DNA of 64,000 bases from NCBI RefSeq assembly GCF_006783905.1, contig NZ_VFPE01000002.1, positions 1,116,001 through 1,180,000 of the forward strand, given 5' to 3'. A program made the position numbers and the translations under genes. This DNA is from Microbacterium kyungheense. Lineage in GTDB: Bacteria > Actinomycetota > Actinomycetes > Actinomycetales > Microbacteriaceae. Below are positions 24,243 to 57,143 of this stretch, piece by piece. Numbering within the stretch: position 1 is the stretch's first letter; every line of letters starts with the position of its first letter. The notes under the pieces were generated by a model. That model saw only the letters and a program-made list of their open reading frames with translations, did not search any database and was not told where the DNA came from.

Positions 24243-25351
24243 ACGACTCCGTCATCCCCACCACGATCGGGTGGGTCCTCGCGATCGCGGTCTTCATCTT
24301 CGTGCTGGTCGTGATCTTCCGATCGATCCGCATCATCCCGCAGGCCAGCGCCGGCATCGTCGAGCGACTCGGGCGGTACCACAAGACGCTCAGCCCGGGA
24401 CTGAACCTGCTCGTCCCCTTCATCGACCGGCTGCGCCCGCTGCTCGACATGCGCGAGCAGGTCGTGTCGTTCCCGCCCCAGCCGGTGATCACCGAAGACA
24501 ACCTCGTCGTCTCGATAGACACCGTCGTGTACTTCCAGGTGACCGACGCCCGCGCCGCGACGTACGAGATCGCCAACTATCTCGGTGCCGTGGAGCAGCT
24601 CACGACCACGACGCTCCGCAACGTCGTCGGCGGTCTCAACCTCGAAGAGGCGCTCACCAGTCGCGACGAGATCAACGGGCAGCTGCGCGTCGTGCTCGAC
24701 GAGGCCACCGGCAAGTGGGGCATCCGCGTCTCGCGGGTCGAGCTCAAGGCGATCGACCCGCCCATCTCGATCCAGGACTCGATGGAGAAGCAGATGCGCG
24801 CCGAGCGCGACCGGCGCGCCGCGATCCTGACCGCCGAGGGCTCGAAGCAGTCGCAGATCCTCGAGGCGGAGGGCCGCCGGCAGGCTGAGATCCTCCGCGC
24901 CGAGGGCGACAAGCAGGCTGCGGTGCTCCGCGCGCAGGGTGAGGCGCAGGCCATCGAGATGGTCTTCAACGCGATCCACGTCGGCGATCCCGACGAGAAG
25001 CTGCTGGCGTACCAGTACCTGCAGACGCTCCCCAAGATCTCGGAGAGCCCGTCGAGCAAGCTGTGGATCATCCCGAGCGAGCTCACCGAGGCGCTCAAGG
25101 GCATCGGCGCGGCATTCGGAGGTCGTGTGCCGGCCGGTCCGCACAGCACGGCGACGGCGTCCTCGCTGGGTACGCCGTCGGCGACGACAGGGACGACGGC
25201 CGACGAGGCTGTCGCCGCCGCCCGGGAAGCCGCCACCGCGGCCGATGACATCGCGACGGCGGCGCAGCAGACCGCAGTGACCGATCTCGGGGCGCCTCCG
25301 GCACCGCAGCCCCCGGACGAATCCGGCGCCGGAACCACCCCGTCTTCGTGA
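24239..25351 (+). CDS. SPFH/band 7 (stomatin-like) membrane protein
   Basis: 370 aa: one N-terminal membrane helix (residues 8-27), SPFH domain starting RIIPQASAGIVERLGRY, a charged coiled-coil with AEGxxQxxILxAEG repeats (about 200-240), then LLAYQYLQTLPKI and an Ala/Thr-rich tail. Such proteins form flotillin-like membrane platforms with NfeD. GTG at 24239 overlaps nfeD by 4 nt, which marks the start. Also overlaps the GDPD gene. Confidence 0.92.
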   Translation: MNDSVIPTTIGWVLAIAVFIFVLVVIFRSIRIIPQASAGIVERLGRYHKTLSPGLNLLVPFIDRLRPLLDMREQVVSFPPQPVITEDNLVVSIDTVVYFQVTDARAATYEIANYLGAVEQLTTTTLRNVVGGLNLEEALTSRDEINGQLRVVLDEATGKWGIRVSRVELKAIDPPISIQDSMEKQMRAERDRRAAILTAEGSKQSQILEAEGRRQAEILRAEGDKQAAVLRAQGEAQAIEMVFNAIHVGDPDEKLLAYQYLQTLPKISESPSSKLWIIPSELTEALKGIGAAFGGRVPAGPHSTATASSLGTPSATTGTTADEAVAAAREAATAADDIATAAQQTAVTDLGAPPAPQPPDESGAGTTPSS

Positions 25352-36730: not shown

Positions 36731-37618
36731 GTGGACGGACTGGGTCGCCGGGTGCTCGTCGCCGCGTTCGACGGGTGGAACGACGCGGGCGAAGCCGCGT
36801 CGTCCGCCATCGCGCACCTGCGGGAAGCGGGCTCGTACGAGCCGGTGTTCTCGGTCGATCCCGAGCTGTACTTCGACTACCAGTACACGCGCCCGAGCGT
36901 CGAGACCGACGGCGAGGGCCGCCGGTCGCTGCGCTGGCCCGAGGCCACGCTCCTGCGCCCCGCCCGCACCACGCGCGGCGGCACCCAGCTGTGGCTCCTC
37001 ACCGGCGTCGAGCCGGCCCGCGCGTGGCAGGCCTTCTCGTCCGAACTCATCGACGTGGCGCTGCGCGAAGACATCACGGGCATGGTCGCGATCGGGTCGA
37101 TGATGTCGGACGTGCCGCACACCCGCCCGATCTCGGTGTTCGCAGGCAGCGACAACGAACTGCTGCGCAGCTCACTGGAGCTCGAGCGCAGCACGTACGA
37201 GGGCCCGGTCGGCATCCTCAGCGTGCTGGGCGACGCCGCAGAGCGCGCCGGCATCCCCACCGCGAGCCTGTGGGCCAGCGTGCCGCATTACGTCGCCGGC
37301 CACACGCCGTCTCCGAAGGCGACGCTCGCTCTCCTCGACAAGCTCGAAGACCTCACGGGCGCTTCGGTGCCGCGCGGCGACCTCGCGACCGAGGCGGCGA
37401 CGTGGGAGGCGACCATCGACGCGGCCGCCGCCGACGACGAAGAGATGACGGAGTACATCCGCCAGCTCGAGCGCACCCGCGACACGTGGGACTCCCCCGA
37501 GGCGTCCGGCGACGCCATCGCGCAGGAGTTCGAGCGCTACCTCCGCCGCACCGACGGCCGCCCCGGCGACGGGCCGCAGAAGCCCGGCCGCGACGACCCG
37601 CGCTCCCCCGGCCGCTGA
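36731..37618 (+). CDS. PAC2-family protein (proteasome assembly chaperone-like)
   Basis: 295 aa. VAAFDGWNDAGEAASSAI at the N-terminus, TGVEPARAWQAFSSELI, SVPHYVAGHTPSPKA and a C-terminal charged coil with YIRQLER are typical for actinobacterial PAC2 proteins. Archaeal/eukaryotic relatives help assemble proteasomes; in Actinobacteria the role is unknown. It stays next to the trmI/paf block although no proteasome genes are here. GTG start with GGAAGGGG. Confidence 0.88.
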   Translation: MDGLGRRVLVAAFDGWNDAGEAASSAIAHLREAGSYEPVFSVDPELYFDYQYTRPSVETDGEGRRSLRWPEATLLRPARTTRGGTQLWLLTGVEPARAWQAFSSELIDVALREDITGMVAIGSMMSDVPHTRPISVFAGSDNELLRSSLELERSTYEGPVGILSVLGDAAERAGIPTASLWASVPHYVAGHTPSPKATLALLDKLEDLTGASVPRGDLATEAATWEATIDAAAADDEEMTEYIRQLERTRDTWDSPEASGDAIAQEFERYLRRTDGRPGDGPQKPGRDDPRSPGR

Positions 37619-37619
37619 G

Positions 37620-37694
37620 CCCTTCGACAGGCTCAGGGACCGGATGCGGGCTCAGGGACCGGACGCCGGCTCAGGGACCGGGTGCCGGCTCAGG
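37620..37694. repeat. REP-like element with three 19-bp tandem units
   Basis: CCCTTCGACAGGCTCAGGG seed at 37620-37638 followed by 19-bp units starting GGCTCAGGGACCGG at 37630, 37649 and 37668 plus a partial unit to 37694 that contains the uppP stop. A near-identical seed lies at 55465-55488. Confidence 0.8.
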
Positions 37695-52384: not shown

Positions 52385-53542
52385 TCACGCTACCCCGAGG
52401 GCCCGCGCGATGACGAGCAGCTGCACCTCGCTCGTGCCCTCGCCGATCTCCAGGATCTTCGAGTCGCGGTAGTGTCGTGCGACCGGGTACTCGTTCATGA
52501 AGCCGTTGCCGCCGAAGACCTGCGTCGCGTCGCGGGCGTTGTCCATCGCGGCGTCGCTCGCGGTGAGCTTCGCGATGGCCGCCTGCGTCTTGAACGGCTT
52601 GCCCGCATCACGCAGGCGTGCGGCGTGATGCCAGGCGAGGCGCGCGACGTGCACGCGCTGCTGCATGCGGGCGAGCAGGAACTGGATGCCCTGCCGGGTC
52701 GCGAGCGGTTCGCCGAACACCGTGCGCTTGCACGCGTAGTCGACGGCGGCTTCGAGGCATCCCTCCGCCGCGCCGGTCGACAGCGCCGCGATGGCGATGC
52801 GTCCCTCGTCGAGGATGTGGAGGAAGTTCGCGAACCCGCGCCCGCGCTCGCCGAGGAGGTTCCCCTCCGGAACGCGTACGTCCTGGAAAGTCAGCGGGTG
52901 GGTGTCGGACGCGTGCCAGCCGACCTTGTCATACGCCGGCTCCACGGTGAAGCCCGCGGTGCCGTTGGGCACGACGATCGTCGAGATCTCTTTGCGCCCA
53001 TCGGCCTCACCGGTCACCGCCGTCACGGTGACGAACCGCGTGATGTCGGTCCCGGAGTTGGTGATGAACTGCTTCGACCCGTTGATGACCCACTCCCCGG
53101 CGTCCAGGCGGGCGGTCGTGCGCGTGGCGCCGGCGTCGGAGCCGGCCTCGGGCTCGGTGAGCCCGAACCCGGCGAGCGCCTCCCCGGCCAGGAGCGGGGG
53201 CAGCAGCTCCTGCTTCTGCTCCTCGGTGCCGAAGCGGAACACGGGCATGGCGCCCAGGCTCACTCCGGCCTCCAGTGTGATCGCCAGGGACTGGTCGACA
53301 CGGCCGAGCGCCTCGATCGCGAGACACAGGGCGAAGTAGTCGCCTCCCTGCCCGCCGTACTCCTCGGGGAAGGGCAGGCCGAACAGGCCGAGCTCGCCCA
53401 TCTGCGCCACGACGTCCAGCGGCAGCGTATGGGTGCGGTCGGCCTCGTACGATCGCGGGGCGACGACCTCGTCGGCGAACTGGCGCACCAGGCCCGCGAG
53501 CTCCCGCTCGTCGTCGGTGACGTCGTAGTCGTAGTCGGGCAT
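52385..53542 (-). CDS. Acyl-CoA dehydrogenase (FadE19/isovaleryl-CoA type)
   Basis: 385 aa flavoprotein. FAD loops FGLTEPEAGSDAGATRT and QVFGGNGFMNEYPVARHYRDSK, C-terminal IGEGTSEVQLLVIARALG. Oxidises a short branched acyl-CoA, probably isovaleryl-CoA, given its neighbours. ATG at 53542 shares one base with the accA1 stop. Confidence 0.92.
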   Translation of the reverse strand: MPDYDYDVTDDERELAGLVRQFADEVVAPRSYEADRTHTLPLDVVAQMGELGLFGLPFPEEYGGQGGDYFALCLAIEALGRVDQSLAITLEAGVSLGAMPVFRFGTEEQKQELLPPLLAGEALAGFGLTEPEAGSDAGATRTTARLDAGEWVINGSKQFITNSGTDITRFVTVTAVTGEADGRKEISTIVVPNGTAGFTVEPAYDKVGWHASDTHPLTFQDVRVPEGNLLGERGRGFANFLHILDEGRIAIAALSTGAAEGCLEAAVDYACKRTVFGEPLATRQGIQFLLARMQQRVHVARLAWHHAARLRDAGKPFKTQAAIAKLTASDAAMDNARDATQVFGGNGFMNEYPVARHYRDSKILEIGEGTSEVQLLVIARALGVA

Positions 53543-55533
53543 CAGTCGTTCTCCTTCACGTGTGCGAGCACCTGGTCGCGCCGCACCTGGTCGCCCACGG
53601 CGACGTCGATCCGCACGATCCCCGCGTGCGGCGCGGCCACGGGGTGCTCCATCTTCATGGCCTCGATCGTCGCGATGCGGTCGCCGGCGGCGACCTCGGC
53701 CCCGTCGGACACGTGGACCGCGACGACGGCTCCCGGCATCGGGGCGCGCAGCTCGGGATCGGATGCCGCAGCCTCCCGCTCCCGCGCGGCCCGGCGCTTC
53801 TCGGCGGCGACGCGGCGGCTGAGCGGACGCAGGGCGGTGGTGACGCCGTCGGCGTGGATCCAGAGCAACCCGTCGTCGGAGCTCGCGGTCGTGACGTCGG
53901 CGGCAGGCACGTGCGCGTGCTCCCCCGGCGCCGCGGCGTGGATGCGCCCGTCGCCGGTCTCGAACGACGCCGTGGCGGCGACCGCCGGCCCACCGGCACG
54001 CCACCCCGAGCGCGCGGACCACAGGGCCGACGCGTGGGACGGACGGGCGGCGGCGGCGGCGGCATCCCGATCCGCCTCCCGGCGTGCGGCAGCGGCGAGG
54101 GCGGCCGCGGGCGGTTCTGGCGCGGTGTACGCGGGCAGCCGCTCGATGAGGCCGGTGTCCATGTCACCGCGCTGCACGCCGGGATCGGCGAGCAGCGTGC
54201 GCAGGAAGCCGATGTTGGTGTCGACGCCCAGCACCACGGTGTCGGCGAGCGCGGCGTCGAGCCGGCGCAGCGCCGCCGCGCGGTCGGGCGCGTGGGCGAT
54301 GACCTTGGCGATCATCGGGTCGTAGTCGGCGGTGACGACGCTCCCGGTCTCGACCGCGCCGTCGGTGCGGACGCCGGGCGCCGCCCGCCAGAGCAGCACG
54401 CCGCCTGTCGCGGGCAGGAAGCCGCGCTCGGGCGATTCGGCGTAGACGCGCGCCTCGATCGCGTGACCGTCCAGGTGCACGTCGTCCTGCGCGATCGCGA
54501 GGGGCTCCCCGGCGGCGATGCGCAGCTGCTGCTCGACGAGATCCACACCGGTCACGAGCTCGGTCACCGGATGCTCGACCTGCAGGCGCGTGTTCATCTC
54601 GATGAAGAAGAACTCGTCGGGTCGGTCGGCGGCGACGAGGAACTCGACGGTGCCGGCGCCGCGATAGTCGACGGATGCCGCCGCCGCACACGCGGCGGCG
54701 CCCAGGCGCGCGCGCGTCTCGGCGTCGAGGACGGGCGACGGTGCCTCTTCGATGACCTTCTGGTGCCGCCGCTGCAGCGTGCACTCGCGCTCTCCGAGAT
54801 GGATGACGCCGCCGTGAGCGTCGGCGAGCACCTGCACCTCGATGTGCCGCGGACGCTCGATGAGCCGCTCGAGCAGCATCGTGTCGTCGCCGAAGGCCGC
54901 CGCTGCGACGCGGCGCGCGGTGGCGAGCGCGTCGGGCAGGTCGGCGGCGCTGCGCACGACCTGCATGCCCTTGCCGCCGCCTCCCGCCGACGGCTTCACC
55001 AGAAGCGGAAAGCCCGTGGCGCCGGCCGACGCCGCGATGTCGGCATCCGTCATCCCGGCCGCGCTGAAGCCCGGAACCGTCGGCACACCGTGGGCGGCGA
55101 CGTGATCCTTCGCCCGGATCTTGTCGCCCATGACCTCCAGCGCGCGCTCCCCCGGCCCGATGAAGACGATGCCGGCGGCGGCGCACGCGCGCGCGAACGT
55201 CACGTTCTCGGACAGGAACCCGTAGCCCGGGTGCACGGCCTGTGCGCCGGTCTGGACGGCAGCGGCGATCACCGCGTCGATGTCGAGGTAGGACTGCGCG
55301 GCCGCGGCCGGCCCGATGCGCACCGCGACGTCCGCCTCGCGCACGTGGGGCGCCGCGGCGTCGGCGTCGCTGTAGACGGCGACCGAACGGATGCCCAGAC
55401 GCCGGAGCGTGCGGATCACGCGGCGCGCGATCTCGCCCCGGTTGGCGACGAGGACGATCTGGAACCCTTCGACGGGCTCAGGGACCGGGGCGGGCTCAGA
55501 GAACGGAGAGGGCTCGGAGAACGGAGAGGTCAT
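53542..55533 (-). CDS. accA1: Biotin carboxylase/carrier alpha subunit (AccA1, methylcrotonyl-CoA type)
   Basis: 663 aa: biotin carboxylase with [13 protein letters not shown]-grasp [24 protein letters not shown], then a linker and the biotin domain with EAMKMEHP (Lys near 627). With AccD1 it carboxylates 3-methylcrotonyl-CoA. The N-terminus is odd: [21 protein letters not shown] repeats precede the normal start of the fold and are encoded by a REP-like repeat. ATG at 55533; a GTG at 55542 overlaps the accD1 stop. Confidence 0.93.
55465..55528. repeat. REP-like seed and 18-bp tandem units inside accA1
   Basis: CCCTTCGACGGGCTCAGGGACCGG (55465-55488) matches the seed at 37620 in 23 of 24 bases. 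Units of 18 bp start at 55475, 55493 and 55511 (GGCTC...), keep the reading frame, and make the PxxEP hexapeptide repeats. Confidence 0.8.
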
Positions 55534-55538
55534 GGCTG

Positions 55539-57143
55539 TCACATCCGGAAGACGCCGAAGCGGGGTTCGGGCAGCGGCGTGCGCGACACGACGTCCAGGG
55601 CCAGGCCCAGGAGGTCCCGCGTATCGAGCGGGTCGACGATGCCGTCGTCCCACAGCCGCGCCGTGGCGTAGTAGGGGTTGCCCTGTTCTTCGTACTGGGC
55701 GCGGATCGGGGCCTCGAAGGCGGACTGCTCGTCGGCGGACCACTGCTCGCCGCGCGCCTGGAGCTGGTCGCGCTTGACCGTCGACAGCACCGACGCGGCC
55801 TGCGGCCCGCCCATCACCGAGATGCGCGAGGCCGGCCACGTCCACAGGAAGCGGGGCGAATACGCCCTTCCGCACATCGAGTAGTTGCCGGCGCCGAACG
55901 AGCCGCCGATGACGACGGTGAGCTTCGGCACCCGCGTCGTCGCGACGGCGGTGACCATCTTGGCGCCGTCCTTCGCGATGCCGCCCGCCTCGGCGTCGCG
56001 GCCGACCATGAAGCCCGAGATGTTCTGCAGGAACAGCAGCGGGATGCCGCGCTGGTCGCACAGCTCGATGAAGTGCGCGCCCTTGAGGGCCGATTCCCCG
56101 AACAGCACGCCGTTGTTCGCGACGATCCCGACCGGATGCCCGTGGATGCGCGCGAACCCGGTGACGAGCGTCGTCCCGTACTCGCGCTTGAACTCGTGCA
56201 GCTCGCTGCCGTCGACGAGGCGCGCGATGACCTCGCGGACGTCGTAGGGCTGGTTCACATCGACGGGCACGATGCCGTACAGCTCCCCCGGATCCGCGAC
56301 CGGATCGACCGTCGGCACGACCTCCCATGCCGGCGCGGCGGGCGGCGGCAGCGTCGCGACGATGTCGCGCACGATCTCCAGCGCGTGCTCGTCGTCCTCG
56401 GCGAGATGGTCGACGACGCCGGAGCGGCGCGCGTGCAGCTCTCCGCCGCCGAGCTCCTCCGCCGTCACGACCTCGCCGATCGCGGCCTTCACCAGGGGCG
56501 GGCCGCCCAGGAAGATGGTGCCCTGGTTGCGGACGATCACGGTCTCGTCGCTCATCGCGGGCACGTAGGCGCCGCCGGCGGTGCACGAGCCGAGCACCGC
56601 GGCGATCTGCGGGATGCCGGCGGCCGAGAGCCTGGCCTGGTTGAAGAAGATGCGGCCGAAGTGGTCGCGGTCGGGGAACACGTCGTCCTGCATCGGCAGG
56701 AACGCGCCGCCCGAGTCGACGAGGTAGATGCAGGGCAGCCGGTTCTCCAGCGCGATCTCCTGCGCCCGCAGGTGCTTCTTGACCGTCATCGGGTAGTACG
56801 TGCCGCCCTTGACGGTCGCGTCGTTGCAGACGACCATCACGTGGCGTCCGTGCACGAGCCCGATGCCCGCGATGACGCCGGCCGCGGGCGCCTCGCCCCC
56901 GTACAGTCCCTCGGCCGCGAGCGGGGCGACCTCGACGAACGGGCTCCCCTCGTCGAGCAGGCGCGACACGCGGTCTCTGGGAAGCAGCTTGCCACGCGCG
57001 AGGTGGCGCTCGCGCGACGCGGGCGGGCCGCCGAGCGACGCCGTGGCCAGACGCTCGCGGAGGTCCTCGGCGAGCGCGCGCTGAGCCTGATCGGCGCGGG
57101 CGAAGGCGTCGTCGGGCACCGCTCGGGTGGTCAGCACGCTCAT
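55539..57143 (-). CDS. accD1: Carboxyltransferase beta subunit (AccD1, methylcrotonyl-CoA type)
   Basis: 534 aa. Both carboxyltransferase halves are present: [12 protein letters not shown]-like [34 protein letters not shown]-equivalent [19 protein letters not shown], and C-terminal [25 protein letters not shown]. Length and the FLPMQ block match the MCC-beta subfamily. First gene of accD1-accA1-fadE-maoC-citE; divergent from its TetR gene with twin palindromes between. Confidence 0.93.

Follow-up and report, generated by a model that had tools for sequence, protein, structure and literature searches.

The short tandem array at the start of the accA1 gene of Microbacterium kyungheense is probably an interspersed repeat that landed in the leader of the gene and then grew in 18-bp steps, most likely as a neutral passenger. 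The features listed here lie within the 64-kb window, by which we mean the whole stretch of 64,000 nucleotides analysed.

53542..55533, minus strand: accA1-like acyl-CoA carboxylase alpha subunit, an ORF of 663 aa with its ATG at 55533-55531
55542-55540, minus strand: alternative accA1 start, an in-frame GTG overlapping the stop of the upstream gene
55539..57143, minus strand: putative carboxyltransferase (beta) subunit, upstream of accA1, named from its sequence
55465..55488, plus strand: repeat core CCCTTCGACGGGCTCAGGGACCGG, reading PVPEPVEG on the minus strand, whose 17-base core occurs 20 times in the genome
55474..55491, minus strand: accA1 array unit most like the repeat consensus, APVPEP, and of the three the nearest to the conserved block
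55492..55509, minus strand: accA1 array unit SPFSEP, 18 bp
55510..55527, minus strand: accA1 array unit SPFSEP, differing from the neighbouring unit at one synonymous site (TCC/TCT)
37615..37694, plus strand: intergenic array of the same repeat, with flanking genes on different strands

The accA1 product is a biotin carboxylase plus biotinyl domain (Pfam: Biotin_carb_N 25-131, CPSase_L_D2 137-346, Biotin_carb_C 360-464, Biotin_lipoyl 594-658), and its ATG lies 5 nt past the carboxyltransferase stop. From that start the gene reads ATG-ACC-[TCTCCGTTCTCCGAGCCC][TCTCCGTTCTCTGAGCCC][GCCCCGGTCCCTGAGCCC]-GTCGAAGGG-TTC-CAG-ATC-GTC-CTC, which places 23 codons ahead of the conserved block. Tandem Repeats Finder delimits the array at 55474-55529, with period 18, 3.1 copies and 86% matches; an earlier note on this DNA, which had placed an array of 18-bp period in the first codons of accA1, was thus right about both position and peptide, the gene being on the minus strand. 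The two SPFSEP units are less consensus-like than the APVPEP unit and are tied to the repeat only via the array. Since they differ from one another at one synonymous base, they are probably its newest duplication, judging from sequence.

Both candidate starts, ATG and GTG, lie upstream of the array, and there is no ATG, GTG or TTG within accA1 codons 2 to 38. The first later candidate, codon 39, already belongs to the conserved block; any translation of the gene must therefore include the array. A translation start past the repeat, the finding that the earlier note had said would speak against it, was rejected on these grounds and was not seen. In an AlphaFold2 model of the product (19 sequences, mean pLDDT 83.8), residues 1-20 all fall under 50, with 33 for residues 1-10 and 40 for 11-20, and the first strand appears at residues 26-30. 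Among the matches listed, 60 PDB sequences align with the product only from residues 18-27 on. The N-terminal tail is therefore predicted to be disordered and rich in Pro, Glu and Ser, in line with the disordered N-terminus proposed earlier.

The seed of the repeat, CCCTTCGACAGGCTCAGGGACCGG, is interspersed in the M. kyungheense genome, as had been suggested from the window: the 4.28 Mb contain its 17-base core, TTCGACNNGCTCAGNGA, 20 times without mismatch and the reversed control pattern not once. One of these (L005) was discounted, by judgement, as native codons of another gene, and three loci identical across 3,017 bases (L016, L019 and L020) were counted once, leaving 17 independent copies. 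These three loci, on contigs C5, C9 and C9, encode a response regulator of the LuxR family whose long linker derives from the repeat, and their identity reflects either duplication or an assembly artefact. Comparison of the 20 loci found the exact 24 bases of the accA1 core once more, in L015. Within the window there are two exact copies only, and a scan allowing 3 mismatches finds 8 against a shuffle mean of 4.22, which is barely above chance as 4 of 100 shuffles reach 8. The intergenic array has, according to Tandem Repeats Finder, period 19 and 3.4 copies at 37630-37694, so the earlier statement that its period and that of the accA1 array differ by one base holds. The same program reports a degenerate 33-bp tandem repeat of 3.1 copies at 24832-24933 of the window, with the second-highest score there (85).

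Beyond this genome, a 21-base form of the repeat is present in 69 of 198 genomes of the genus, at 0-70 copies each, and the control gave 0 in every row. A phylum-wide sample of 396 genomes, including 4 of the genus and 2 others of the family, contained it in three, two of which are Microbacterium; the control matched once, in another genome. The repeat was also seen in 13 stretches (L270-L282) of a viral contig collection, which may be phage or host DNA. No account of it was found in the freely accessible literature searched.

By reading, 11 of the 17 independent copies lie in frame within ORFs. They are C-terminal in ribD, a PadR regulator and an ABC ATPase, N-terminal in cmk, accA1 and two permeases, internal in truB, an FGGY kinase and a GAF-domain protein, and in a linker in the LuxR-family protein. 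Later starts make the N-terminal assignments less secure for the permeases and for L007 and L014. Only three of the 11 (L009, L013 and L018, that is truB, FGGY and GAF) pass a strict test requiring both flanks to be coding, which calls the remaining terminal and linker copies borders; over all 43 core matches (36 loci) the same test places 7 in genes, one of them the chance match L005. In-frame insertion can be read against empty orthologues for accA1, truB, the FGGY kinase and cmk. For truB (L009 1501-1517; L246; L253), five of eight relatives are empty, revealing an 18-nt gain in the window's genome; G028 shares a decayed copy, and G160 and G129 each have a separate insert, in G129 a decayed array of greater length. 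At the FGGY kinase the site is empty in seven of eight relatives, again an 18-nt gain; the eighth, G129, carries a decayed copy of 15 nt. G028 lacks the cmk extension, and the other seven relatives have different leaders there.

We then compared the accA1 leaders of relatives, using 133 sequences from loci L021-L155 (122 distinct, the window's own included). Leaders were scored against shuffles that kept base content only, three per leader; where no upstream stop was recognised (9 leaders), the leader was trimmed to 60 nt. Nine of the 122 exceed the shuffle maximum for this repeat (L101, which is the window, L022, L026, L137, L142, L023 and L045) or for a second one, the ERAKRDEG repeat (L151, L133 and also L022). 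This second interspersed repeat, GAGCGAGCGAAGCGAGACGAAGG, lies in the accA1 leader of L151 (G128), L022 and L133; its carriers number 21 of the 198 genus genomes, with a maximum of 25 copies in G128, and the window's genome is not among them. In L045, a Cryobacterium leader from outside the genus, the repeat-like sequence is CACTTCGACAAGCTCAGTAACAG. Single or decayed copies in the same orientation as in the window read PLPEPVEG in L022, SLPEPAEG in L026, PLPEPADG in L021 and PPDPAEG in L133, those of L021 and L133 falling below the score threshold and being called remnants only by alignment with neighbours. The opposite orientation is found in L137 and, degenerate, in L023, and L142 has a different arrangement.

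The sister genome G028, which pairs with the window at support 100 in a tree of the 55 closest accA1 sequences, has no insert: its leader begins ATG-TTCGACACC, reading ATG-TTC-GAC-ACC. The next six relatives all carry the repeat or a remnant of it at this site, in either orientation, and parsimony on the tree requires three changes for its presence. A single clade of the seven repeat-bearing sequences was rejected (AU p 0.017, indicative only, as the group was named post hoc), which leaves two possibilities for the empty site of G028, loss there or parallel gain. With the closest relative empty and the next ones carrying it, the accA1 insert may be old or recent. The native F-D-T codons (CTTCGACACC) fit the 5' end of the repeat with scores of 8-9 of a possible 24; we make no claim of target microhomology, as the truB and FGGY empty sites have no such match.

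A multi-unit array of the 18-bp repeat occurs only in the window's genome among the 122 leaders. The comparison of N-termini that had been proposed therefore found the array not conserved in relatives, so that the second outcome which the earlier note had named as refuting, conservation in all relatives, was not seen either, and the 'new' N-terminus of the earlier note proves new as regards the 18-bp expansion, seen only here, but not as regards the single copy or remnant, which several relatives share. Self-comparison of the leaders detected tandem repeats in six, with periods of 9, 9, 12, 15, 18 and 18, all divisible by three. Four of these are unrelated to this repeat (L135 from G160, 15 bp; L054, 18 bp; L126, 9 bp; L075, 12 bp), and in L023 a 9-bp tandem repeat lies within the degenerate copy. 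The accA1 leader thus seems to be a place that tolerates tandem growth, beyond the window's genome. In addition, accA1 inserts go with repeat-rich genomes (rank test of 6 against 24 genomes, p 0.0007, kinship uncorrected).

The earlier note also took the 18-bp period in the gene, next to 19 bp outside it, as a sign of selection for a multiple of three. That one pair cannot show it, since arrays outside genes often have periods of 18 or 21 too; the genus-wide arrays do bear the idea out. Tandem copies occur in 29 of 198 genus genomes (the control gave 5 matches in 4 genomes), and we classified 75 distinct arrays, which are those around the listed places rather than all in the genus, a few genomes contributing many; for the richest genomes, G019 and G109, which have 34 and 37 places, 20 each were listed. 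Arrays were classed from the codon statistics of both flanks, in the main setting with 180-bp flanks and a threshold of 8, by a frame classifier trained on accA1 orthologues, for which a check result of 116/116 used windows of the same training sequences. Of the arrays listed, 22 lie in genes, meaning that the two flanks code in one common frame, and every one of these has a period that is a multiple of three (7 of 18, 12 of 21 and 3 of 24 bp), as against 27 of the 53 other arrays listed (Fisher p 1.1e-5); when these others are tallied by distinct periods, as 29 and 26, p is 2.6e-5. Over 12 settings p ranged from 3e-6 to 0.087, the last at 120-bp flanks with the strictest threshold, where only 6 in-gene arrays are left. 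The in-gene class had zero exceptions as long as the stop filter was on; switching it off brought up to 2 in some of the settings. L178 and L223, two of the 22, have homologous host genes.

Since the reading frame survives only where the inserted bases add up to a multiple of three, the rule is the filter to be expected against frameshifts; it shows selection of that kind only and is no evidence of a useful peptide. Should single inserts all share one length that is a multiple of three, the rule is also partly built into the in-gene class, and arrays outside genes (27/53) likewise lean to multiples of three. By reading, 11 of the 22 arrays use a GSGT-type frame, 6 a QGP-type and 5 a PVPEP-type; none uses the PFDRLRDR or RSLSLSK frame, although in L014 one lone copy does read RSLSLSK. 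Pfam searches covered 19 of the 22 hosts (all but L160, L182 and L207), with positions assigned by reading, and two had no match. The array lies between domains in five hosts (L159 Ada, L161, L176 HrpA-like helicase, L215 and L217 DnaE), at a domain edge in three (L184 MoaA, L196 and L223) and inside one domain match in nine (L177, L178, L183, L189, L190 GcvP, L198 HisRS, L212 GMC oxidoreductase, L214 aldehyde dehydrogenase and L222 enoyl-CoA hydratase). Insertion is therefore not confined to linkers.

Taken together, these data suggest the following course of events. A genus repeat of 18-24 bp would have inserted into the short leader of accA1, which separates the start codon from the first beta strand of its biotin carboxylase domain, and the inserted copy would have been duplicated stepwise by 18 bp, probably through replication slippage or unequal recombination. 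An insertion of a multiple of three would be tolerated here because the leader carries no structure, and five of the six reading frames of the repeat are open on inspection of the consensus. The outcome would be a disordered Pro/Glu/Ser-rich tail, most likely a neutral passenger. As no transposase was identified, the mobility asserted earlier is one that we infer solely from the pattern of presence and absence; the mechanism of duplication, the actual translation of the tail and its neutrality are likewise points that we infer.

The repeat resembles REP sequences in size, interspersion and position near genes, and REP clusters within genes are on record (PMC3733652), so that a classical REP/REPIN moved by a REP-associated tyrosine transposase (RAYT) has to be considered. 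We regard it as quite unlikely. A single 24-mer unit has minimum free energies of -1.1 kcal/mol (z +0.90) on one strand and -1.6 kcal/mol (z +0.35) on the other, giving no significant hairpin on either strand relative to shuffles, and neither a GTAG nor a CGTC tag was found in the consensus by inspection. Y1_Tnp has 0 matches in the window's genome, where a very diverged enzyme could escape the search, and 197 of 198 genus genomes are without it; the sole carrier, G041, has no repeat copy. With no Y1_Tnp found in any repeat-bearing genome of the genus survey, mobilisation by a RAYT is not supported. Copy number is also below the REP norm, which usually exceeds 100 per genome (PMC2817692), with 20 cores in the window's genome and a maximum of 70 copies (21-base form) across the 198 genomes, decayed copies being uncounted. 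Given a single unit without a significant hairpin and 197 of 198 genomes without a detectable REP transposase, 'REP' is a loose name: the 'REP-like' of the earlier note describes looks, not membership, and is not supported in the strict sense.

The repeat might instead work as DNA or RNA at the carboxylase gene junction, through message stability, translational coupling or a protein-binding site, with translation incidental. It sits exactly at the junction of two subunit genes, many other copies are at gene borders, and the unrelated ERAKRDEG repeat occupies the same leader in L151, L022 and L133. The accA1 array strand, however, folds no better than shuffles (z +0.99), the intergenic array only slightly better (z -1.04, not significant), and a consensus-based scan revealed no promoter- or terminator-like site, so a hairpin or terminator role is not supported; moreover, orientation varies among relatives (L137 against L022) and the sister G028 is empty. 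Such a role is unlikely, if with an outside chance of being right. We consider it very unlikely that the tail is adaptive, a Pro/Glu-rich arm for holoenzyme assembly or solubility whose units selection keeps and expands. The use of only three of the five open frames by the 22 in-gene arrays and the retention of PEPxxG in L022, L026 and L021 are what such an arm would lead one to expect, but the frame choice is explicable by selection against harmful peptides, the peptide varies freely between species, and the tail is missing in G028 and in most orthologues, only 9 of 122 leaders exceeding the shuffle maximum. Finally, convergent low-complexity coding sequence could in principle take the place of repeat insertion, given the unrelated tandem repeats in the leaders of L135 (15 bp), L054 (18 bp) and L126 (9 bp). 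It is extremely improbable in view of the exact 24 bases recurring in L015, the 20 core matches against none for the control and the empty sister site, and for the proximal unit the genome counts already refute it.

Landing of an interspersed repeat followed by 18-bp growth thus remains our preferred explanation. More tentatively, and at less than even odds, we suggest that the genus has a protein-coding interspersed repeat, moved by a non-RAYT mechanism, that repeatedly gives rise to new peptides in linkers and at termini. In this proposal it would have preferred sites (the accA1 leader, truB), persist mainly in the three frames giving soluble low-complexity peptides and then grow by 18-, 21- or 24-bp steps in enzymes such as DnaE, HisRS, GcvP and the HrpA-like helicase. 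Empty site, single copy, decayed copy and expanded array are found side by side in one genus, so that the birth and growth of disordered protein tails become traceable. The 22/22 rule among the in-gene arrays listed provides a natural test of frame selection and, with no RAYT detectable, what moves the repeat becomes a testable question.

The protein-coding small repeats that we found described are from Rickettsia and proteobacteria, and the present data extend the same phenomenon to an actinobacterial genus. Rickettsia palindromic elements (RPE) lie in frame in unrelated genes and result in translational fusion (PMC10969869, citing Ogata 2000). The repeat studied here is likewise interspersed and inserted in frame into unrelated genes; unlike the RPE, which are palindromic, about 150 bp long and from Rickettsia, it has a unit of 18-24 bp that forms no significant hairpin, shows tandem growth, gives a net insert of 18 nt in truB and the FGGY kinase, and belongs to an actinobacterial genus. 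Intragenic GTAG/CGTC REPs, described by Di Nocera et al. (2013, PMC3733652) with N-terminal and truB insertions and in clusters that code for 43-82 aa, are similar in being small in-gene repeats at N-terminal and truB sites. They are tagged, the GTAG ones often lying near RAYT genes, whereas here there is no tag and no RAYT was detected; the main text of that paper nowhere uses the word Actinobacteria. The REP/REPIN-RAYT systems (PMC2817692, PMC3116915, PMC8266576) share short interspersed repeats that are partly tandem, but the present repeat has far fewer copies (20 cores) in a genus where all but one of the 198 genomes are without Y1_Tnp. Since PMC3733652 names truB among the genes hit by REPs and RPEs in proteobacteria and Rickettsia, such repeats may target this gene recurrently across phyla. 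The present case is set apart from the RPE and REP precedents by its taxon, its unit, the absence of a detectable RAYT and its tandem growth in short steps within genes.
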